Shown here: positions 1,492 to 34,424 of the stretch, piece by piece | Numbering within the stretch: position 1 is the stretch's first letter | How the letters are laid out: every line of letters starts with the position of its first letter | Assembly: GCF_018986735.1 (NCBI RefSeq) | Contig: NZ_CP065521.1 | Span: forward strand, 992,001-1,056,000 | DNA length: 64,000 nucleotides | From: Schaalia sp. 19OD2882 | Lineage (GTDB): Bacteria > Actinomycetota > Actinomycetes > Actinomycetales > Actinomycetaceae | Reading direction: 5' to 3' | The notes under the pieces: model-generated | Seen by the model: only the letters and a program-made list of their open reading frames with translations | The model's database searches: none | What the model was told of the DNA's origin: nothing | Translations under genes and position numbers: made by a program

Positions 1492-1580
1492 CTGCGACCG
1501 GGTGGCGTTGGAGCGGTCTCTTCACGCTAATTTGGACGGCGGTGCCAGAGTTGTCGGGCATCTTTGAAGGTCGTCTGATC

Positions 1581-2921
1581 ATGGAGGAGCCGGTTTTGGC
1601 AGAGGAACGTCGCAGGTGCCCGCTGCCGAAGCGTCGGCAGATCCACTCGCCCGCCCCGAGCCTCACCTCAGAGCCCGCCCCCACTCCGCCTGCGCGCTCC
1701 CGCGCCGCCGCCGCACGTCAGCGCTTGGCCGCCCAGGAGGCCGCCGAAGCGGCACGTCAGCGAGTCGAAGCCCGTGAGGAGGCCCGCCCTCGGGTGACGA
1801 CCGGCGCCCGGGTCACCTCTTCCCTGTCGGCAAAGGCCTGCACCACGAGCCCCTCGACGCGTGCGACGACCACAGTGGGTGCCGCCCATGCGACCTCGGC
1901 TCCTGTCATGGCCCCCACGGTGCCCGTGCCCGCCAAGGAGGTGCCTGTCGCCTCCGCGCCAGTGAAGCGATCCGCTCCGGTGCCCGCGCCGGTCAAGCGG
2001 GCGTCAGAATCCGGTGCATCCGAGCCGGTCGCCTCGAAGGTGGAGGCGAAGATCTCACAGGCCCCCACGCCTGCCGCGAAGTCCCCGACCCCCGCATTGC
2101 GCAGCCGTCGCACCGCCTCGACTGCCGGCAGCCGGAGCGCGGGCCGGCGCGGGGGCCGCCCTCGTCGTGAACCCGGTACTCGCAGGCGCGCCACCGTCAA
2201 GGGCGTCCTGCTGACCGCCTTGGCCGCCGTCACCGTCGCCACACCACTGAGCGGCATGCTCTCCCCGGCCTCGTCGATCGCACTGCCGGTGCGCGCCATC
2301 GGCACCCCGGTGGGAGGAAGCACGTGGGTGTCCGCCGCCGCAGGACTCACCGACGCCCACGCTCTGACCGAAGACCTCACCGCAGCCTCGCGGACCCGCG
2401 TGCGTTCCCCCTTGACCGTGTCGCAATGCGTCCCCGCCGCCGCTGCCGACGGCACCCGGACCCTGAACCAGGTTGCCGCACTGTACTGGCCGGTGGCCGA
2501 AGGAGCCTACGAGATCACCTCGCCCTACGGGCCGCGCATCTCGCCGATTTCCGGCCAGCTGCTCATGCACGAAGGCATCGACATGTCCGGTGCCATGGGC
2601 GAACCCCTGTACTCTGTGGCCGACGGCGTGGTCACGGAGGTGTCCGAGAACTCCCGCTCCGGCGCGCTGGTCGGCATCAAGCACGTGGGCCAGGACGGAG
2701 AGGTCTTCTACTCGTACTACCTGCACCAGTACATGGACAAGATCCTCGTCAAGCAGGGTGAAGAGGTCAAGGCCGGCCAGCACATCGGCGCCATCGGCTC
2801 CAACGGGTGGTCCACCGGCCCGCACCTGCACTTCGAGATCCACGATTCGGCCGACAAACACGTCGATCCCCAGGCCTGGATGATCGCCCACAAGGCCCAA
2901 CACGTGGGAGGAGGCTGCTGA
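1581..2921 (+). CDS. M23-family metallopeptidase (LytM-type cell wall endopeptidase)
   Basis: 446 aa. The N-terminal half (about 20-170) is a low-complexity Ala/Pro/Arg/Val segment, probably disordered. A single hydrophobic segment lies at about 210-235 (VKGVLLTALAAVTVATPLSGM), so the protein looks membrane-anchored or secreted with a long cytoplasmic N-terminus. The last 140 residues are an M23 domain: YGPRISPISG, HEGIDMSG (zinc His and Asp), YYLHQYM, and GPHLHFEIH with the final zinc His. M23 enzymes cleave peptidoglycan cross-bridges. ATG 1581 follows GAAGG and was preferred because the reading frame further upstream overlaps the preceding gene. The stop overlaps the next ATG (TGATG), so it is coupled to the phosphodiesterase gene. 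Confidence 0.85.
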   Translation: MEEPVLAEERRRCPLPKRRQIHSPAPSLTSEPAPTPPARSRAAAARQRLAAQEAAEAARQRVEAREEARPRVTTGARVTSSLSAKACTTSPSTRATTTVGAAHATSAPVMAPTVPVPAKEVPVASAPVKRSAPVPAPVKRASESGASEPVASKVEAKISQAPTPAAKSPTPALRSRRTASTAGSRSAGRRGGRPRREPGTRRRATVKGVLLTALAAVTVATPLSGMLSPASSIALPVRAIGTPVGGSTWVSAAAGLTDAHALTEDLTAASRTRVRSPLTVSQCVPAAAADGTRTLNQVAALYWPVAEGAYEITSPYGPRISPISGQLLMHEGIDMSGAMGEPLYSVADGVVTEVSENSRSGALVGIKHVGQDGEVFYSYYLHQYMDKILVKQGEEVKAGQHIGAIGSNGWSTGPHLHFEIHDSADKHVDPQAWMIAHKAQHVGGGC

Positions 2922-3745
2922 TGTACCCGGTCACCGGCGTGCGTGGTCCCCTCGTCCTGGCCCACAGGGGCGGGGGAGACGAACACCCGGAGAACTCACC
3001 GGCGGCCTTCGCCGCCATGCGCGGGCTCGGGGTCCGTCACATCGAGACCGACGCCCACCTCAGCAAGGACGGAGTGGTGGTCGTCAACCACGACGCCACC
3101 GTCGAGCGCACCTATGACGGCAAGGGGGCCATCGGCGACCTCATGTGGTCCGAGCTGCGCGACCTCGTGGGCACCGACGGTGAACGCATGATGACCCTGT
3201 CCGAGGCCCTGCTGACGCACCCGGACATGTACTTCAACATCGACGCCAAAAGCGATGCGGTGGCCGAACCGCTTCTGCGCGTCATCGAGGACCACGACGC
3301 CTTCGATCGGGTCCTCGTCGCATCCTTCAGCGAGCGCCGCCTGGCACGTCTGCGTGCCCTGGCCGGGCCGATGCTCACCACCTCCATTGGCACCACCGCA
3401 GTGGCACTGCTGGTCGGGGCCGCCCAGACGGTCTCCGACGCCACTGCGTGGGGTGTGCCGGGTCCCAAGCAGGGAGTGCGCGCCGTGCAGGTTCCTGTGC
3501 GACAGGGATTCCTGCGGATCGTCGACCGGCGCTTCGTCGCCACCGCCCACCGGGCCGGCTTGGCAGTCCACGTGTGGACCGTCAACGACGAGGCCACCAT
3601 GCGCGAACTCGTCGGCCTCGGAGTCGACGGCATCGTCACCGATCGACCGAGTCTGGCCAAGGACGTCCTGGTGGACATGGGGCTCTGGCGCGAAGTGCCG
3701 CCGCCCTCGCGCACGCCCTCGACGTGGACCGCGCCGAAGGACTGA
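2921..3745 (+). CDS. glycerophosphodiester phosphodiesterase family protein
   Basis: 274 aa, the normal size for bacterial GDPDs, which hydrolyse glycerophosphodiesters to glycerol-3-phosphate plus an alcohol. The GDPD motifs are in order: LAHRGGGDEHPENSPAAF with the catalytic His, then HIETDAHLSKDGVVVVNHD with the Glu-x-Asp metal ligands and the second catalytic His. A TIM-barrel C-terminus follows, ending with VHVWTVNDEATMRELVGLGVDGIVTDRP. No signal peptide is evident, so it is probably cytoplasmic. The start overlaps the M23 gene's stop by one base. The phosphodiesterase stop is directly adjacent to an in-frame ATG of the next reading frame, but that gene most likely starts later. Confidence 0.9.
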   Translation: MYPVTGVRGPLVLAHRGGGDEHPENSPAAFAAMRGLGVRHIETDAHLSKDGVVVVNHDATVERTYDGKGAIGDLMWSELRDLVGTDGERMMTLSEALLTHPDMYFNIDAKSDAVAEPLLRVIEDHDAFDRVLVASFSERRLARLRALAGPMLTTSIGTTAVALLVGAAQTVSDATAWGVPGPKQGVRAVQVPVRQGFLRIVDRRFVATAHRAGLAVHVWTVNDEATMRELVGLGVDGIVTDRPSLAKDVLVDMGLWREVPPPSRTPSTWTAPKD

Positions 3746-3892
3746 ATGGCGCCCGTCCGGGAACACCCGGATCCCTCCCCGAAAGAACCCCGGCCACCGG
3801 CCAAGCCTCTTCGCACTGTGCGCACATGTGCGAGGATCGTTACGCACTTCGGACAGACCCCGGCAATCAAGTCACTGGTACTAGGAGGAATC

Positions 3893-4849
3893 GTGGGCAG
3901 TGCGACATCACACGCCGAAAGGGACCGGTCATGGGTGGGCAAGCCGTGGGAGCCGCCCTCGTCCCACCCGGATGGACGCGTTGACAGGATTCAGCGCTGG
4001 CGCGGATGGCAGCTGCTGGCCTCCTTTGCCCTCCTCATCGCCGCCCAAGTCATGGGCATCGCCCCCTACTACGCCCTCAAGGGCATCAGGCCCGACGATC
4101 CCCTTCTGGCCGCCACCGTCTTCCTGCTGAGCGCTGTGGTGGCCGCCGCCGTTTCCGTCGGCGGTCATGCGCTGATCGTCAAGCATCTCGGTGGGCGGCC
4201 CGGCACGGGCTTGGCCGGGCCCGGGAAACTGCGCGAGTTCGGGGCGGGGCTGGGCATGGGCTTCGCGCTGATGACTTTCATGTTCGCAGTGCTGTGGATC
4301 CTTGGGGTCTACCGTGTGCACGACATCGGATGGAACCCGGGCATCGTCTCCGGCTTGGCGATCGGCATCGCCGCAGGATTCAACGAGGAAGTCTTCTTCC
4401 GCGGCAACCTGCTGAGAATCCTGGACGATTGGATCGGCTCCTGGGGCGCGCTGGCCGTCACGGCGCTCTTCTTCGGTGTCGCCCACATCTTCAACCCGGG
4501 CGCCTCGCTCTTCACCAGCCTCGCCTTGGTCCTGGAGGCGGGCATTCTCCTGGGAGCCACCTACTTGCTCACGCGCAGACTGTGGCTGGTGATCGGTCTG
4601 CACATCGCATGGAACACCACCATGGCCTCGCTCTTCGGCGGAGTGGTCTCTGGTGCAACCAACGAAGGGGGCCTTTTGACGTCGAGCCTGGAAGGGCCGC
4701 AGTGGCTCACCGGTGGGGCAATGGGAGTCGAAGGCTCCGTGGTGGCCATCGCGGTGGCGGGTCTCCTCGGCCTGGTCATCCTCGTCCTGGCGGTGCGCAA
4801 GGGCCGGATGCTGCCGCCGACCTGGTACCACGGCGCCGCACGGGAGTGA
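3893..4849 (+). CDS. CPBP family intramembrane metalloprotease
   Basis: 318 aa with about eight hydrophobic segments. The CPBP (Abi/CAAX protease) signature is complete: FNEEVFFRGNLLRIL (EExxxR), then FFGVAHIFN and GLHIAWNTTMA carrying the further zinc-ligand His residues. Family members act as membrane-embedded proteases, some linked to bacteriocin immunity or prenyl-protein processing; the substrate here is unknown. The reading frame is open from ATG 3746, but GTG 3893 has a strong AGGAGG five to seven bases upstream, and the 49 codons before it are low-quality Pro/Arg-rich sequence, so 3893 was chosen. It faces the antiporter gene tail to tail. Confidence 0.82.
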   Translation: MGSATSHAERDRSWVGKPWEPPSSHPDGRVDRIQRWRGWQLLASFALLIAAQVMGIAPYYALKGIRPDDPLLAATVFLLSAVVAAAVSVGGHALIVKHLGGRPGTGLAGPGKLREFGAGLGMGFALMTFMFAVLWILGVYRVHDIGWNPGIVSGLAIGIAAGFNEEVFFRGNLLRILDDWIGSWGALAVTALFFGVAHIFNPGASLFTSLALVLEAGILLGATYLLTRRLWLVIGLHIAWNTTMASLFGGVVSGATNEGGLLTSSLEGPQWLTGGAMGVEGSVVAIAVAGLLGLVILVLAVRKGRMLPPTWYHGAARE

Positions 4850-4866
4850 AGACGGCCGTGGGGTCC

Positions 4867-4888
4867 GACCTCGGTGCGAACCGGGGTC
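4867..4888. terminator. short hairpin between convergent genes
   Basis: A nine-base-pair stem (4867-4875 with 4880-4888, one G-U pair) and a GCGA loop lie between the converging CPBP and antiporter genes and overlap the antiporter stop codon. No T-run follows on either side, so intrinsic termination is only plausible. Confidence 0.45.
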
Positions 4889-6302
4889 AGAGCTGCGTGC
4901 GAGCCAAGGAGTTGTCCTCCAGCTGGCGGGCCCGGACGATGCGGATGACGGCGAGCAGGGCGATCGCGGCGGCCAGCACCCACCCCATGATGTGTGCCCA
5001 CCAGATCTCGGCGACGAAGATCAGAGCCATCGAGGCCAGGACCGGCACCAGCAGCAAGAAAGCGTCGACGACATAGCGTCCGAAGGACGGCATCTCGACG
5101 CCGTCGGATTCGGCGACCGATTTGACCATGAAGTTCGGGCCATTGCCGATGTAGGTGATCGCCCCGCAGAAGACCGCGCCCAGTGAAATGGGAACCAGGA
5201 AGTGCTCCGGGACTCCCGCCACCAGGGTTTGTCCGGGTTGGGCCAGCACCTTGGCCATCTCGAAGAAGGTGAGGTAGGTCGGGGCGTTGTCCAGGACGGA
5301 GGACAATCCGCCGGTGAAGATGAAGAAGGTCACCCGGTTCAAGGGCAGGGACGGGGCGACCTGCTCCAGGAAGCGCAGCGCCGGGGCCATCGTGGCGAAG
5401 ATGCCGATGAACAGGACGGCGACCTCGGTGATCGGCGTCCACGTGAAGGCGTTGTCTTCGAAGCGCACCTTCTTCGAGCCCAGGAAGTACGAGGCCGCAG
5501 CGATGGAGACCATGGCGATCTCACGGAAGGGAACCAGGGCCAGACCGTGCGCGTGGCCTGCGGCGACCTCGTGGGCGTCCACGGAAGGGATGAAGGCCAC
5601 GGAGGCGACGATCGCCGCGAAGAAGACAAGGTTGAGTTTGCCGTCCAGGCGCAGGGGAGTGATCTCGGTACGGTCCGCGATGACGGCGCGCTGCGGCTCG
5701 GAGGCGTGGTACGTCGAGTCCAGCGAATAGTAGGTGAGCAGTAGCAGGACCAGCACGAAGAGCCATTCGACCCACAGGTTGAAGGTCCAGGTGAAGGGCA
5801 CTCCCTTGAGGAAGCCGAGGAAGAGCGGCGGGTCGCCCAAAGGAGTGAGCAGCCCTCCGCAGTTGGCCACGATGAAGATCGTGAACAAGACGGTGTGCAG
5901 CCGGTGGGTGCGTTCTCGGTTGGTGGCCAGGATCGGGCGGATCAGCAGCATCGCCGCGCCTGTGGTGCCGACGAAACTGGCGAGGAGACCTCCGACGGCC
6001 AGGAAGATCGTGTTGTTGCGTGGGGTCGCTTCGATGTCGCCGGCCAGGTGGATGCCGCCTGAGACCACGAAGAGGGACAGGAGCAGGCAGATGAATTGGA
6101 TGTAGTCGATCCCCGTGGACACCAGCGGTTCAGATCCTGCGAAGAGGAACAGCCAGATGGAGGTGGGGATCGCCAGGCCCAGGGCGACCAGGAGTTGACT
6201 GGATGTCTTCTCCCACCAGTGGGTTGCGCCCGAGATCGGCAGGATCGCGATTGCCGCGAGCATGAGGACGAAGGGGATGAGCGACCACCAGGGATATGTC
6301 AC
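4887..6302 (-). CDS. sodium:proton antiporter of the ArsB/NhaD-like ion transporter superfamily
   Basis: 471 aa with about 12 membrane segments. The internal stretch NCGGLLTPLGDPPLFLGFLKG, and later VLDNAPTYLTFFEMAK, are typical of the bacterial group annotated as sodium:proton antiporters within the ion transporter (IT) superfamily. Such proteins exchange sodium for protons across the cytoplasmic membrane; the ion is inferred from the family. The start is a GTG at 6302 preceded by AAGGA; an upstream methionine is not available. It lies alone on the minus strand between a CPBP gene and an EamA gene, with 112 bp to the latter. Confidence 0.8.
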   Translation of the reverse strand: MTYPWWSLIPFVLMLAAIAILPISGATHWWEKTSSQLLVALGLAIPTSIWLFLFAGSEPLVSTGIDYIQFICLLLSLFVVSGGIHLAGDIEATPRNNTIFLAVGGLLASFVGTTGAAMLLIRPILATNRERTHRLHTVLFTIFIVANCGGLLTPLGDPPLFLGFLKGVPFTWTFNLWVEWLFVLVLLLLTYYSLDSTYHASEPQRAVIADRTEITPLRLDGKLNLVFFAAIVASVAFIPSVDAHEVAAGHAHGLALVPFREIAMVSIAAASYFLGSKKVRFEDNAFTWTPITEVAVLFIGIFATMAPALRFLEQVAPSLPLNRVTFFIFTGGLSSVLDNAPTYLTFFEMAKVLAQPGQTLVAGVPEHFLVPISLGAVFCGAITYIGNGPNFMVKSVAESDGVEMPSFGRYVVDAFLLLVPVLASMALIFVAEIWWAHIMGWVLAAAIALLAVIRIVRARQLEDNSLARTQL

Positions 6303-30923: not shown

Positions 30924-31856
30924 TCAGGTGACGACGAAGCCCAACGAGCGGAAGTGGTCGCGCACCTCGGTCGTGGCCTGGACGCTCGGCGGTTGCGTGG
31001 CGTCCAGGGTGTAGTGCAGGCCCAGTGACTTCCACTTGTCGCGACCCATCTGGTGGAAGGGCAGGACCTCCACGCGATCGATGACATTGCGCCACTTCGA
31101 GATGATCCGGCCGATCGCCTCGATGTTCTCCTTGGCGTCCGTCAGATCGGGCACCAGGACGAATCGGATCCACACGCGCGTGGTCCCGCGCGCCGCCAAC
31201 CGGTCGCCGAAGTCGATGGTCGGCTGCAACTCGCCGCCGGTGACCTTCCGGTAGGTGTCCGGCAGCCCGGACTTGACGTCCAGCAGGACCAGGTCGATGT
31301 CGTCGAGCATTGCGTCATCACAGTTGACGCCCAAGAACCCCGAGGTGTCGAGGCAGGTGTGCACACCCATTTCCTTGGCTCCGCGGAAGATGCGACGCAC
31401 GAACTCGGGCTGCATCATCGCCTCTCCACCGGAGATCGTCACGCCTCCGCCACTGGCGCGGAAGATCCGGCGGTAACGGCGAATCCTGGCCAGAATGTCC
31501 TCGATGCTCACCGGCGCCCCGTCCTTCATGAGGAAGGTGTCGGGGTTGTGGCAGTACTGGCAACGCAGTCCGCACCCGTTGAGGAACACGGTCAGTCGGG
31601 TACCGGGGCCGTCCACGGCGGTGACGAGCTCCCACGAATGCACCGACCCCAAGGTGCCTTCACGCATTCGGTGCAGCCGGTCGGCCCTTTCCAGGTCGGA
31701 CAGTACCTCCAGACCTGCGATGCCCAGGCCGACCGCGCGAGCGGTCGGGGCTTCGAAGTCCTGGTCGCGCAGGTTTTGGGCGCGTTCGGACACGGGTCCG
31801 GTGGGGACGATGCTCGATCCGTCTCCGAGGGCGACGGGCGTGGGCAGGTCGGTCAT
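30924..31856 (-). CDS. pflA: pyruvate formate-lyase activating enzyme (radical SAM)
   Basis: 310 aa. Installs the glycyl radical on pyruvate formate-lyase with S-adenosylmethionine and a 4Fe-4S cluster. The cluster motif CxxxCxxC is Cys 95, Cys 99 and Cys 102 (NGCGLRCQYCHNPDT). GGVTISGGEAMMQPEFV and DVKSGLPDTY follow, and VEVLPFHQMGRDKW near the end. The family normally begins at the equivalent of GTLGSVHSWE (residue 67); here about 65 extra residues precede it with coding-like composition and no better internal start. It is the last gene of the pflB-grcA-pflA operon. Confidence 0.93.
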   Translation of the reverse strand: MTDLPTPVALGDGSSIVPTGPVSERAQNLRDQDFEAPTARAVGLGIAGLEVLSDLERADRLHRMREGTLGSVHSWELVTAVDGPGTRLTVFLNGCGLRCQYCHNPDTFLMKDGAPVSIEDILARIRRYRRIFRASGGGVTISGGEAMMQPEFVRRIFRGAKEMGVHTCLDTSGFLGVNCDDAMLDDIDLVLLDVKSGLPDTYRKVTGGELQPTIDFGDRLAARGTTRVWIRFVLVPDLTDAKENIEAIGRIISKWRNVIDRVEVLPFHQMGRDKWKSLGLHYTLDATQPPSVQATTEVRDHFRSLGFVVT

Positions 31857-31999: not shown

Positions 32000-32251
32000 T
32001 CAGGCCGAGTGGTGGAAGGTCCGGGACAGGACGTCCAGCTGCTGCTCGCGGGTGAGCTTGACGAAGTTCACCGCGTAGCCGGAGACGCGCACCGTGAGGT
32101 TCGGGTACTTCTCCGGGTGGTCGATGGCGTCCTCGAGGGTGGCGCGGTCCAGCACGTTGATGTTTGCGTGGTACAGGCCGGCGATGCCGCCGTGCTCCTC
32201 ACGGGCGGCCTTCATCGCGGCGAGACGCTCTTCGTAGGTCCTGGTTGCCAT
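32000..32251 (-). CDS. grcA: stand-alone glycyl-radical domain of pyruvate formate-lyase (GrcA/YfiD-like)
   Basis: 83 aa. From residue 27 it matches the last ~57 residues of [40 protein letters not shown] then [13 protein letters not shown]. The radical-bearing glycine is Gly 58 in R-V-S-G-Y-A. The first 25 residues are a charged helix absent from full PFL. In E. coli GrcA is a spare part that repairs oxygen-cleaved PFL. Here the main PFL gene upstream lacks this domain, so the small protein must supply the radical for every catalytic cycle. It lies 58 bp after the main subunit gene and before pflA. Confidence 0.92.
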
Positions 32252-32309
32252 GTGTGTGTCCTCTTTCGGTTCTCAGTGTGCAGTGGTGAAGGTCAGGGGT
32301 GGGCGGAGG

Positions 32310-34424
32310 TCAGTGGCTCGGGACGAGACCGCATTCCTCGTCCGGGACGAAGCCCGCGTCGAGGATGCCGACGAGGTTGGTGATCTGCTCGTCCTTCGTG
32401 CGGCCAAGGCCCGAAGGTGTGATCGTGTTCGTCAGCGAGATGCCGTCGAGCGCGTCGTTGTAGTCGAGTTTTCCGACCGAGAGCATCGAGGCCACCATTC
32501 CGTGGGTGTCGATGCCGTTCTCGGGGTTGGCGCCCGGGGCGAAGGGGGTGCCGGCACGGTGACCCGAGGGGAAGTTGCCGGTGGCCTTGCCGTAGACGAC
32601 GTTCGAGGTGATCGTGAGCACCGACTGGGTCGGGATTGCGTCACGGTACATGGGGATCTGGCGGATCTTGTCCATGATCGTGTGAACCACTGTGGCGGCG
32701 ATGTCGTCCGCGCGGTCGTCGTCGTTGCCGTAGGTCGGGAACTCGCCCTCGGTGACGTAGTCGACGACCAGGCCGGACTCGTCACGAACCGGGGTGACCT
32801 TCGCGTACTTGATGGCCGCCAAGGAGTCGGCGACGATGGACAGACCCGCGATGCCGCAACCCATGGTGCGGACGATCTCCGAGTCGTGCAGAGCCATCTC
32901 GATCGACTCGTAGGCGTAGCGGTCGTGGCAGTAGTGGATGATGTTCAGGGCTTCGACATAGGTGCCGACGACCCAGTCCAACATGTCCTCGTACTTGGCC
33001 CAGACCTCGTCGAAGTCCAGCGGGCCGTCACCCTCGATGCCGGCCAGGCCGGTGACGACCTGCTTGCCGCTCATCTCGTCGCGGCCACCGTTGATGGCGT
33101 AGAGCAGGGACTTGGCGGCGTTGACGCGCGCGCCGAAGAACTGCATCTGCTTGCCCACCCGCATGGGGGACACACAGCAGGCGATGGCAGCGTCGTCTCC
33201 CCAATGTTCACGGATCTGGCCGTCGGACTCGTACTGGATCGACGAGGTCTCGATGGAGATCGCGGCGCAGAACTCCTTGTAGCCCTTGGGCAGGTTCTCG
33301 TCCCAGAAGATCGTGATGTTCGGCTCCGGGGCGGGGCCCAGGTTGCGAAGGGTCTGCAGCAGACGGAAGGAGGTCTTGGTGACCAAGGTGCGGCCGTCAT
33401 CGCCGAAGCCTGCGTCCGACCACGTGGCCCAGTAGGGGTCGCCCGAGAAGATCTGGTCGTAGTCGATGGTGCGCAGGAAGCGGGTGATGCGCAGCTTGAT
33501 GACCAAGGCGTCGATCATCTCCTGGGCATCGGTCTCGGTGATGGCACCTGCGGCCAGGTCGCGCTCGAAGTAGATGTCGAGGAATCCCGACAGGCGGCCG
33601 ATGGACATGGCCGCGCCGTCCTGGCTCTTGACCGACGCCAAGTAGCCGAAGTACGTCCACTGGACTGCTTCCTGGGCGGTGCGGGCCGGGCCCGAGATGT
33701 CGAAGCCGTAGTCGGCCGCCATCATCTTGAGCTTCTTCAGGGCCTTGATCTGCTCGGAGTGTTCCTCGCGGTAGCGGGCCCAGTGCTCGGAGAAGCCCTG
33801 GTCGGCGTAGCGGTCCTTGTCCTGCTGCTTCCACTCGATGAGCTTGTCCACGCCGTACAGGGCCACACGGCGGTAGTCGCCGATGATGCGGCCGCGGCCG
33901 TAGGCGTCCGGCAGGCCGGTGATGATGTGCGAGGAGCGAGCTGCGCGGATGCGCGGGGTGTAGATGTCGAAGACCGCGTCATTGTGGGTCTTGCGGTACT
34001 GGGTGAAGATCTTCTTGACCTCGGGGTCGATCTCCTTGCCGGCCTCGTGGATGGCCGTCTCGACCATGCGCCAGCCACCATTGGGCATCATTGCGCGCTT
34101 GAGTGGGGAGTCGGTCTGCAGGCCCACGATGACGTCGTCATCATCGCTGATGTAGCCGGGGCGGAAGGCGTCGATGTCCGCAGGTGTATGGGTGTCGACG
34201 TCGAGAATCCGGACCTTGCGCTCCTCCTTGAGGAATTTCTCCTCCAGGGTCTGCCACAGACGAAGGGTCTTTTCCGTGGGGCCGGCGAGGAAGCTCGCGT
34301 CGCCCTCGTAGGGGGTGTAGTTGCGCTGGATGAAGTCACGCACGTCGACGGCTTGCGTCCACGGCCCGGTTTCGAATCCCTCCCACGCATCGGTCACTGT
34401 TGCGGGAGCGGTCTCCTCTGTCAT
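32310..34424 (-). CDS. pflB: pyruvate formate-lyase main subunit, lacking the glycyl-radical domain
   Basis: 704 aa. Formate C-acetyltransferase converts pyruvate and CoA to acetyl-CoA and formate. The PFL barrel is complete with the catalytic Cys pair at 416-417 (AIACCVSPMRVG), close to E. coli Cys418-Cys419. The chain follows PFL to KLDYNDALDGISLTNTITPSGLG and NLVGILDAGF, then ends in an unrelated acidic tail (VPDEECGLVPSH). In E. coli PFL some 60 further residues carry the glycyl radical; here they are encoded by the next gene. ATG 34424 follows AAGGA; a longer frame adds eight residues. Divergent from hom across a long regulatory gap. Confidence 0.95.
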   Translation of the reverse strand: MTEETAPATVTDAWEGFETGPWTQAVDVRDFIQRNYTPYEGDASFLAGPTEKTLRLWQTLEEKFLKEERKVRILDVDTHTPADIDAFRPGYISDDDDVIVGLQTDSPLKRAMMPNGGWRMVETAIHEAGKEIDPEVKKIFTQYRKTHNDAVFDIYTPRIRAARSSHIITGLPDAYGRGRIIGDYRRVALYGVDKLIEWKQQDKDRYADQGFSEHWARYREEHSEQIKALKKLKMMAADYGFDISGPARTAQEAVQWTYFGYLASVKSQDGAAMSIGRLSGFLDIYFERDLAAGAITETDAQEMIDALVIKLRITRFLRTIDYDQIFSGDPYWATWSDAGFGDDGRTLVTKTSFRLLQTLRNLGPAPEPNITIFWDENLPKGYKEFCAAISIETSSIQYESDGQIREHWGDDAAIACCVSPMRVGKQMQFFGARVNAAKSLLYAINGGRDEMSGKQVVTGLAGIEGDGPLDFDEVWAKYEDMLDWVVGTYVEALNIIHYCHDRYAYESIEMALHDSEIVRTMGCGIAGLSIVADSLAAIKYAKVTPVRDESGLVVDYVTEGEFPTYGNDDDRADDIAATVVHTIMDKIRQIPMYRDAIPTQSVLTITSNVVYGKATGNFPSGHRAGTPFAPGANPENGIDTHGMVASMLSVGKLDYNDALDGISLTNTITPSGLGRTKDEQITNLVGILDAGFVPDEECGLVPSH

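Follow-up and report, generated by a model that had tools for sequence, protein, structure and literature searches.

The window, a 64,000-nucleotide stretch of the Schaalia sp. 19OD2882 genome, carries on its minus strand, in this order, the core gene of a pyruvate formate-lyase (PFL; pflB), a gap of 58 nt, a small gene for GrcA2, a gap of 143 nt, and pflA. The features on which the analysis rests are the following.

32310–34424, minus strand: PFL core (pflB without the glycyl-radical domain), 704 aa (TIGR01255; matches to E. coli PFL 1H16 and to 38LB)
33174–33179, minus strand: codons of the catalytic pair Cys416–Cys417, E. coli C418–C419 (pairwise alignment to E. coli PflB)
32313–32348, minus strand: non-homologous 12-residue C-terminal tail of the core, after F692 (end of alignment; tail variable in 45 related loci)
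32252–32309, minus strand: 58-nt intergenic gap with Shine-Dalgarno-like AAAGAGGA (sequence reading)
32000–32251, minus strand: GrcA2, stand-alone glycyl-radical subunit, 83 aa (NCBIfam NF008341; Gly_radical 66–106 of 106)
32198–32239, minus strand: GrcA2 codons 5–18, conserved N-terminal helix with R9, M13, and R17 (46 sequences; predicted helix)
32078–32080, minus strand: Gly58 codon (GGC), counterpart of the radical Gly734 of E. coli PflB (alignment, sequence)
30924–31856, minus strand: pflA, PFL-activating radical SAM enzyme, 310 aa, 143 nt downstream of GrcA2 (TIGR02493)

The core frame runs from an ATG at 34424 to a stop codon at 32310–32312, and in a profile search it covers positions 1–681 of the 744 in the PFL model TIGR01255, at 997.8 bits against a curated cut-off of 994.2. 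Both this score and the adjacent catalytic cysteines mark the chain as a PFL, and residues R179, W332, C416, C417, and R433 align with E. coli R176, W333, C418, C419, and R435. Absent from the chain is the C-terminal glycyl-radical domain: The match stops at model position 681, only positions 1–65 of the 106 in Pfam Gly_radical are found, and F692, which pairs with F693 of E. coli PflB, is the last residue that aligns. An earlier sequence-only reading of this DNA had described a main chain that keeps its Cys416–Cys417 pair and ends before the radical domain, and both profile and alignment bear this out. The core is very probably a normal PFL that stops just short of the strand and loop of the radical glycine, a judgment that we make jointly for the whole two-subunit explanation developed below.

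The missing part, with Gly58 in RVSGYA, is supplied by the small gene, as that reading had also proposed. Its product is a member of the GrcA2 family (NF008341; 162.7 bits against a cut-off of 145), covers TIGR01255 positions 681–743, the part absent from the core, and aligns with E. coli PflB 699–758, where RVSGYA corresponds to the motif of Gly734. Its scores for GrcA (TIGR04365; 86.7 against a cut-off of 170) and GrcA3 (NF038360; 97.2 against 158) fall below the thresholds of those families, and it matches the autonomous glycyl radical cofactor 6OWR at 75.5 bits. The neighboring PflA scores above its own cut-off (TIGR02493; 296.9 bits against 231.75) and has about 70 residues (31644–31856, minus strand) ahead of the part that matches the model (72–303 of 310). 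In our own reading of the sequence, AAAGAGGA lies upstream of the ATG of the small gene, and Shine-Dalgarno-like sites precede both the core and GrcA2 in the window. A scan of the window, covering certain types of promoter, found no promoter-like or terminator-like site on the strand of these genes.

The two-gene layout across related loci

In the first 60 loci compared, the split of the window (type A) occurs 37 times and a different split (type B) 8 times; the other 15 are full-length. Eighty named loci comprise 11 with the type A split (the cores of L146 and L147 being incomplete), 67 in which a single frame holds both core and domain (those of L182, L184, and L201 being partial), and two others: L183 (Silvimonas terrae; 1525–4183, plus strand), where, after a full-length PFL, a short frame encodes the radical domain once more, on its own, and L200 (Clostridium sp. 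DSM 8431; 2265–4237, plus strand), where the PFL is divided between two frames and looks broken. Ten later loci gave five type A splits and five full-length genes, with the core of L231 identical to that of L154. Measurements were made on 45 type A loci and the window, leaving out L146, L147, and L144 (the last apparently being on the same contig as L117).

The core is followed by the small gene, in the same order, in all 45 measured type A loci and in the window. The gap between the two genes ranges from −1 to 378 nt, a purine-rich stretch lies ahead of every small-gene ATG in the 45 loci, and the stop codon is TGA in 28, TAA in 15, and TAG in 2. The 378-nt gap belongs to a locus of the same genus (L123, genome G161) and results from an inverted copy of the core C-terminus (residues 608–700; 2877–3224, minus strand) lying between core and GrcA2. 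Another locus of the genus (L126, genome G188) has a partial downstream duplication (3790–6034, plus strand) in which GrcA2 residues 56–83 close a 408-codon frame, followed by a second pflA.

There is practically no chance that a sequencing error, a frameshift, or a decaying gene explains the arrangement: Although the two pieces together make up one normal PFL, the 45 loci share the two-gene layout with differing stop codons and varying gaps, and the small gene begins at a start codon of its own, with an N-terminus that is both new and conserved. The 58 nt from core stop to small-gene start are not a multiple of three. The joining frameshift against which the sequence-only reading had cautioned is rejected. 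Stop-codon read-through or frameshifting that yields some fused full-length PFL is likewise extremely improbable. The two genes share a frame in 18 of the 45 loci, with a single stop between them in 12, as such a mechanism would allow; however, chance alone would put about one third of the loci in frame, close to the 18 of 45 observed, the gap of the window is out of frame, and both stop codons and gap lengths vary.

The core tail is 4–14 residues long in the 45 loci, just four in 23 of them, and several tails are basic (for example, IKKG). The acidic tail of the window's core had been proposed as part of a docking interface, an idea that so short and variable an element does not support.

Occurrence of GrcA2 and of full-length PFL

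The source genome consists of one contig of 2.56 Mb (99.94% complete), across which a Pfam Gly_radical search matches only the core and the small gene; a second full-length pflB, which would have made the split copy redundant, does not appear in this search. Within the genus, the small gene exceeds the curated cut-off in 34 of 35 genomes, and the sole miss is a 70%-complete genome.

Across 200 genomes sampled from the family, TIGR01255 has matches in 183. These include 143 genomes in which GrcA2 exceeds the NCBI cut-off, every one with a PFL core match, and 32 with a full-length PFL in one frame; the rest include six weak matches (best E about 1e-16 to 1e-18) and one at 1e-4. The 79%-complete genome G036 has a TIGR01255 match as well, with a domain match resembling that of a full-length PFL. 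GrcA2 exceeds its cut-off in none of the 32 genomes with an intact full-length PFL (the GrcA2 and TIGR01255 tables were matched up by eye). In the rows listed for the GrcA2 genomes, which are fewer than all 143, the TIGR01255 match ends at 676–702 of 744, in a few of them past a stop; the exception among these rows is G171, whose match passes through a TGA to 743. A two-piece PFL is common in the family and is no oddity of a single genome, and the comparison of full-length with split PFL that the sequence-only reading had called for thus finds the two without overlap. More widely, GrcA2 exceeds the cut-off in 27 of 198 genomes of an order sample, 14 of these lying outside the family, and in 2 of 396 genomes of a phylum sample, the window included; named carriers include Actinomyces, Trueperella, Corynebacterium, Brachybacterium, and Dermabacter.

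Because a core match accompanies GrcA2 in all 143 genomes, and GrcA2 stays below its cut-off in the 32 genomes with an intact PFL, we infer that GrcA2 is best read as an obligate radical subunit and not as a spare part of the E. coli type, in agreement with what had been supposed from the window. That GrcA2 only repairs oxygen-cut PFL, as a spare part would, is very unlikely. Its NCBI name, "autonomous glycyl radical cofactor GrcA2," and the likeness of its domain to GrcA (the 6OWR match above) suit such a role, but the search of this genome revealed no intact PFL in need of repair, its single detected pflB being without the domain, GrcA2 is missing from the 32 family genomes that do have one, and its TIGR04365 score falls short of the GrcA cut-off.

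Kinship to fused PFLs and origin of the pair

Among fused PFLs, those of Bifidobacteriaceae and of Cellulomonas citrea with three similar genomes are the closest to the split cores. They read unbroken across the cut, with ILDAG or ILDSG leading directly into the domain (for example, GLFHANINVL); in the split loci, the core ends at DAGF, and about 24 new residues precede the homologous part of GrcA2. Over the radical domain, GrcA2 is identical to the C. citrea PFL at 49 of 56 residues, to two Bifidobacterium PFLs at 47 and 48 of 56, to E. coli GrcA at 38 of 55, and to E. coli PflB at 34 of 55. Recruitment of a proteobacterial GrcA as the source of GrcA2 was considered and rejected, the domain being nearer, over the 55–56 residues compared, to fused actinobacterial PFLs. 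Since the nearest full-length PFLs read unbroken across the cut, gene fission of a fused PFL is the simplest reading and appears the most likely origin of the pair. We consider it highly likely, on sequence grounds, that the window encodes a two-subunit PFL composed of the core and GrcA2, most likely derived by such a fission.

In a 72-row tree, the type A cores, C. citrea, and the Bifidobacteriaceae are joined at 100 (SH-aLRT), and type B lies far away, among PFLs of Bacillota, Pseudomonadota, and others. Cellulomonas citrea and the three like genomes (L157, L224–L226) fall among the split cores in three trees, and the Bifidobacteriaceae do so in two of these three. In careful trees, the type A cores are not monophyletic, and none of the 200 bootstrap trees unites them; AU tests with these cores held as one clade do not reject that arrangement in any of three sets (one-clade tree 8.19 better, p = 0.617; 5.62 worse, p = 0.32; 13.79 worse, p = 0.176). 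Type A may reflect one fission without reversal, several fissions, or re-fusion in C. citrea and like genomes.

A second split with a different cut site

The eight type B loci have a separate radical piece of the GrcA3 family (NF038360) and a PFL core without the domain. The small protein of one of them, L112, has its best named match in Collinsella tanakaei (99%), and type B belongs to Collinsella and Enorma. Holding types A and B as one clade is rejected (326.8 log-likelihood units worse, p = 0.00019), and the cut sites differ as well, at TIGR01255 position 681 in type A and 665 in L112; for both reasons, the type B split seems to have an origin separate from that of type A. The L112 small piece retains NLVGMIDAYA, and its core, unlike that of the window, has a long, cysteine-bearing tail. 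All eight type B cores (L108–L115) carry at least two cysteines in their last 20 residues (for example, ENPDCSCC or PDCGCC).

Two formate acetyltransferase structures in the PDB, 38LA and 38LB, have no radical domain by sequence, and 38LB aligns with a type B core into its tail (1–702 versus 22–724). Cores such as those of type B have probably been solved as structures already, although 38LA could also be an engineered truncation; a PDB search with a type B small protein found no partner chain for 38LA or 38LB at E up to 1.

How the two chains may work together

Work on E. coli provides a close parallel. In PMC8683613, a truncated enzyme, tPFL (residues 696–759 removed), shows no YfiD binding detectable by ITC and 32-fold less radical, and tPFL complexes with YfiD match wild-type activity once activated; its authors regard residues 696–733 as a recognition element and the N-terminal half of YfiD as required for binding. 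In vivo, E. coli PflB-G734A yields intermediate formate with GrcA and none without it (PMC12338860), so that a radical in trans can run PFL. The last homologous residue of the window's core corresponds to E. coli F693, within two residues of the tPFL end, so that the core looks close to a natural tPFL. Given that tPFL has no detectable YfiD binding, core and GrcA2 would have to bind by means other than those of YfiD.

R9, M13, and R17 of GrcA2, which follow one another at intervals of four residues, are the same in all 46 sequences (among five later loci, L228 has Lys at position 17). The mean majority share in the 46 sequences is 0.75 for residues 4–18, 0.92 for the radical domain (25–80), and 0.44 for the joint between them (19–24). 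In a tethered single-chain model of the same-genus locus L121 (33 alignment rows; mean pLDDT 85.5, pTM 0.88), residues 720–734 (GrcA2 6–20) are helical, with ten-residue blocks at pLDDT 95 and 86; the linker has values below 50, and confidence is lower in the region of the radical loop (blocks 72–78). The model fits PFL 1MZO with an rmsd of 1.6 Å over 745 residues (model range 12–797); its tether forces proximity and its alignment contains 24 natural fused PFLs, so the result is biased and is no test of binding. The charged N-terminus of GrcA2 had been put forward as a docking element: Its conserved residues and confidently modeled helix give this partial support, and the helix is the best candidate for a replacement anchor.

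In the mechanism that we propose, GrcA2 would bring the strand HANINVL and the Gly58 loop to the core in trans, docking in the gap of the core, where its conserved N-terminal helix would hold it. PflA, encoded next door, would install the radical on Gly58, which would then hand it to Cys416/Cys417, the role played by Gly734 in E. coli. Exchange of GrcA2 after oxygen damage is plausible. We advance more tentatively, as a possibility, that the radical domain is a routinely exchangeable subunit: Oxygen would cut GrcA2 at Gly58, the damaged 9-kDa protein would leave, and a fresh one would dock with no leftover segment to displace, so that the core is reused; the N-terminal helix would be an evolutionary novelty, an anchor that overcomes the binding problem of tPFL, and the design would have arisen at least twice, with different cut sites.

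We give roughly even chances to the alternative that core and GrcA2 form a permanent two-chain complex whose split is neutral, with no exchange, which differs from the two-subunit explanation only in the purpose of the split (the odds of the two are not mutually exclusive). The adjacency of the genes, both with Shine-Dalgarno-like sites, and the existence of fused relatives of the same PFL clade in nearby families agree with such a complex. So does the second split: Collinsella-type bacteria are strict anaerobes, in which oxygen repair should matter less, and the suggestion that a detachable radical domain suits a microaerophile may therefore not generalize. However, the persistence of the arrangement in 143 of the 200 family genomes, together with its second, apparently separate origin, hints at some benefit.

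Relation to known systems

In textbook glycyl-radical enzymes, the radical resides in the same chain. The window shares with PflB (TIGR01255; E. coli, Bifidobacterium) the homology of the core, the cysteine pair, and a neighboring pflA, and differs in that a second protein carries the radical domain, with the cut falling where E. coli has F693/H694. With GrcA/YfiD (TIGR04365), GrcA2 shares a stand-alone glycyl-radical domain and an expected action in trans; it differs in its roughly 24 extra residues, in a core that lacks 696–733, and in not occurring beside an intact full-length PFL, either in its own genome or in the 32 full-length family genomes. The protein is a member of NCBIfam GrcA2 (NF008341), a family whose name says cofactor.

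Already known are the NCBI curated families GrcA2 and GrcA3, named as autonomous cofactors, and the structures 38LA and 38LB; added here are the exclusive pairing of GrcA2 with a domain-less core, the two origins, and the parallel with tPFL. Literature searches, covering sources other than bioRxiv and most subscription journals, returned no paper on a naturally split PFL, and a term search of PMC11528403 returned nothing on the subject.

If GrcA2 is the second subunit of a two-chain PFL, then in Schaalia, Actinomyces, and Trueperella, and in some Corynebacterium, Brachybacterium, and Dermabacter, a central fermentation enzyme appears to be permanently without a radical domain of its own. This would change how the annotations GrcA2 and GrcA3 are read, as a subunit and not a repair kit. 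It would also provide a natural system for asking whether oxygen damage is followed by exchange of the radical subunit, and by what means GrcA2 binds a core cut almost exactly where E. coli YfiD binding is lost.
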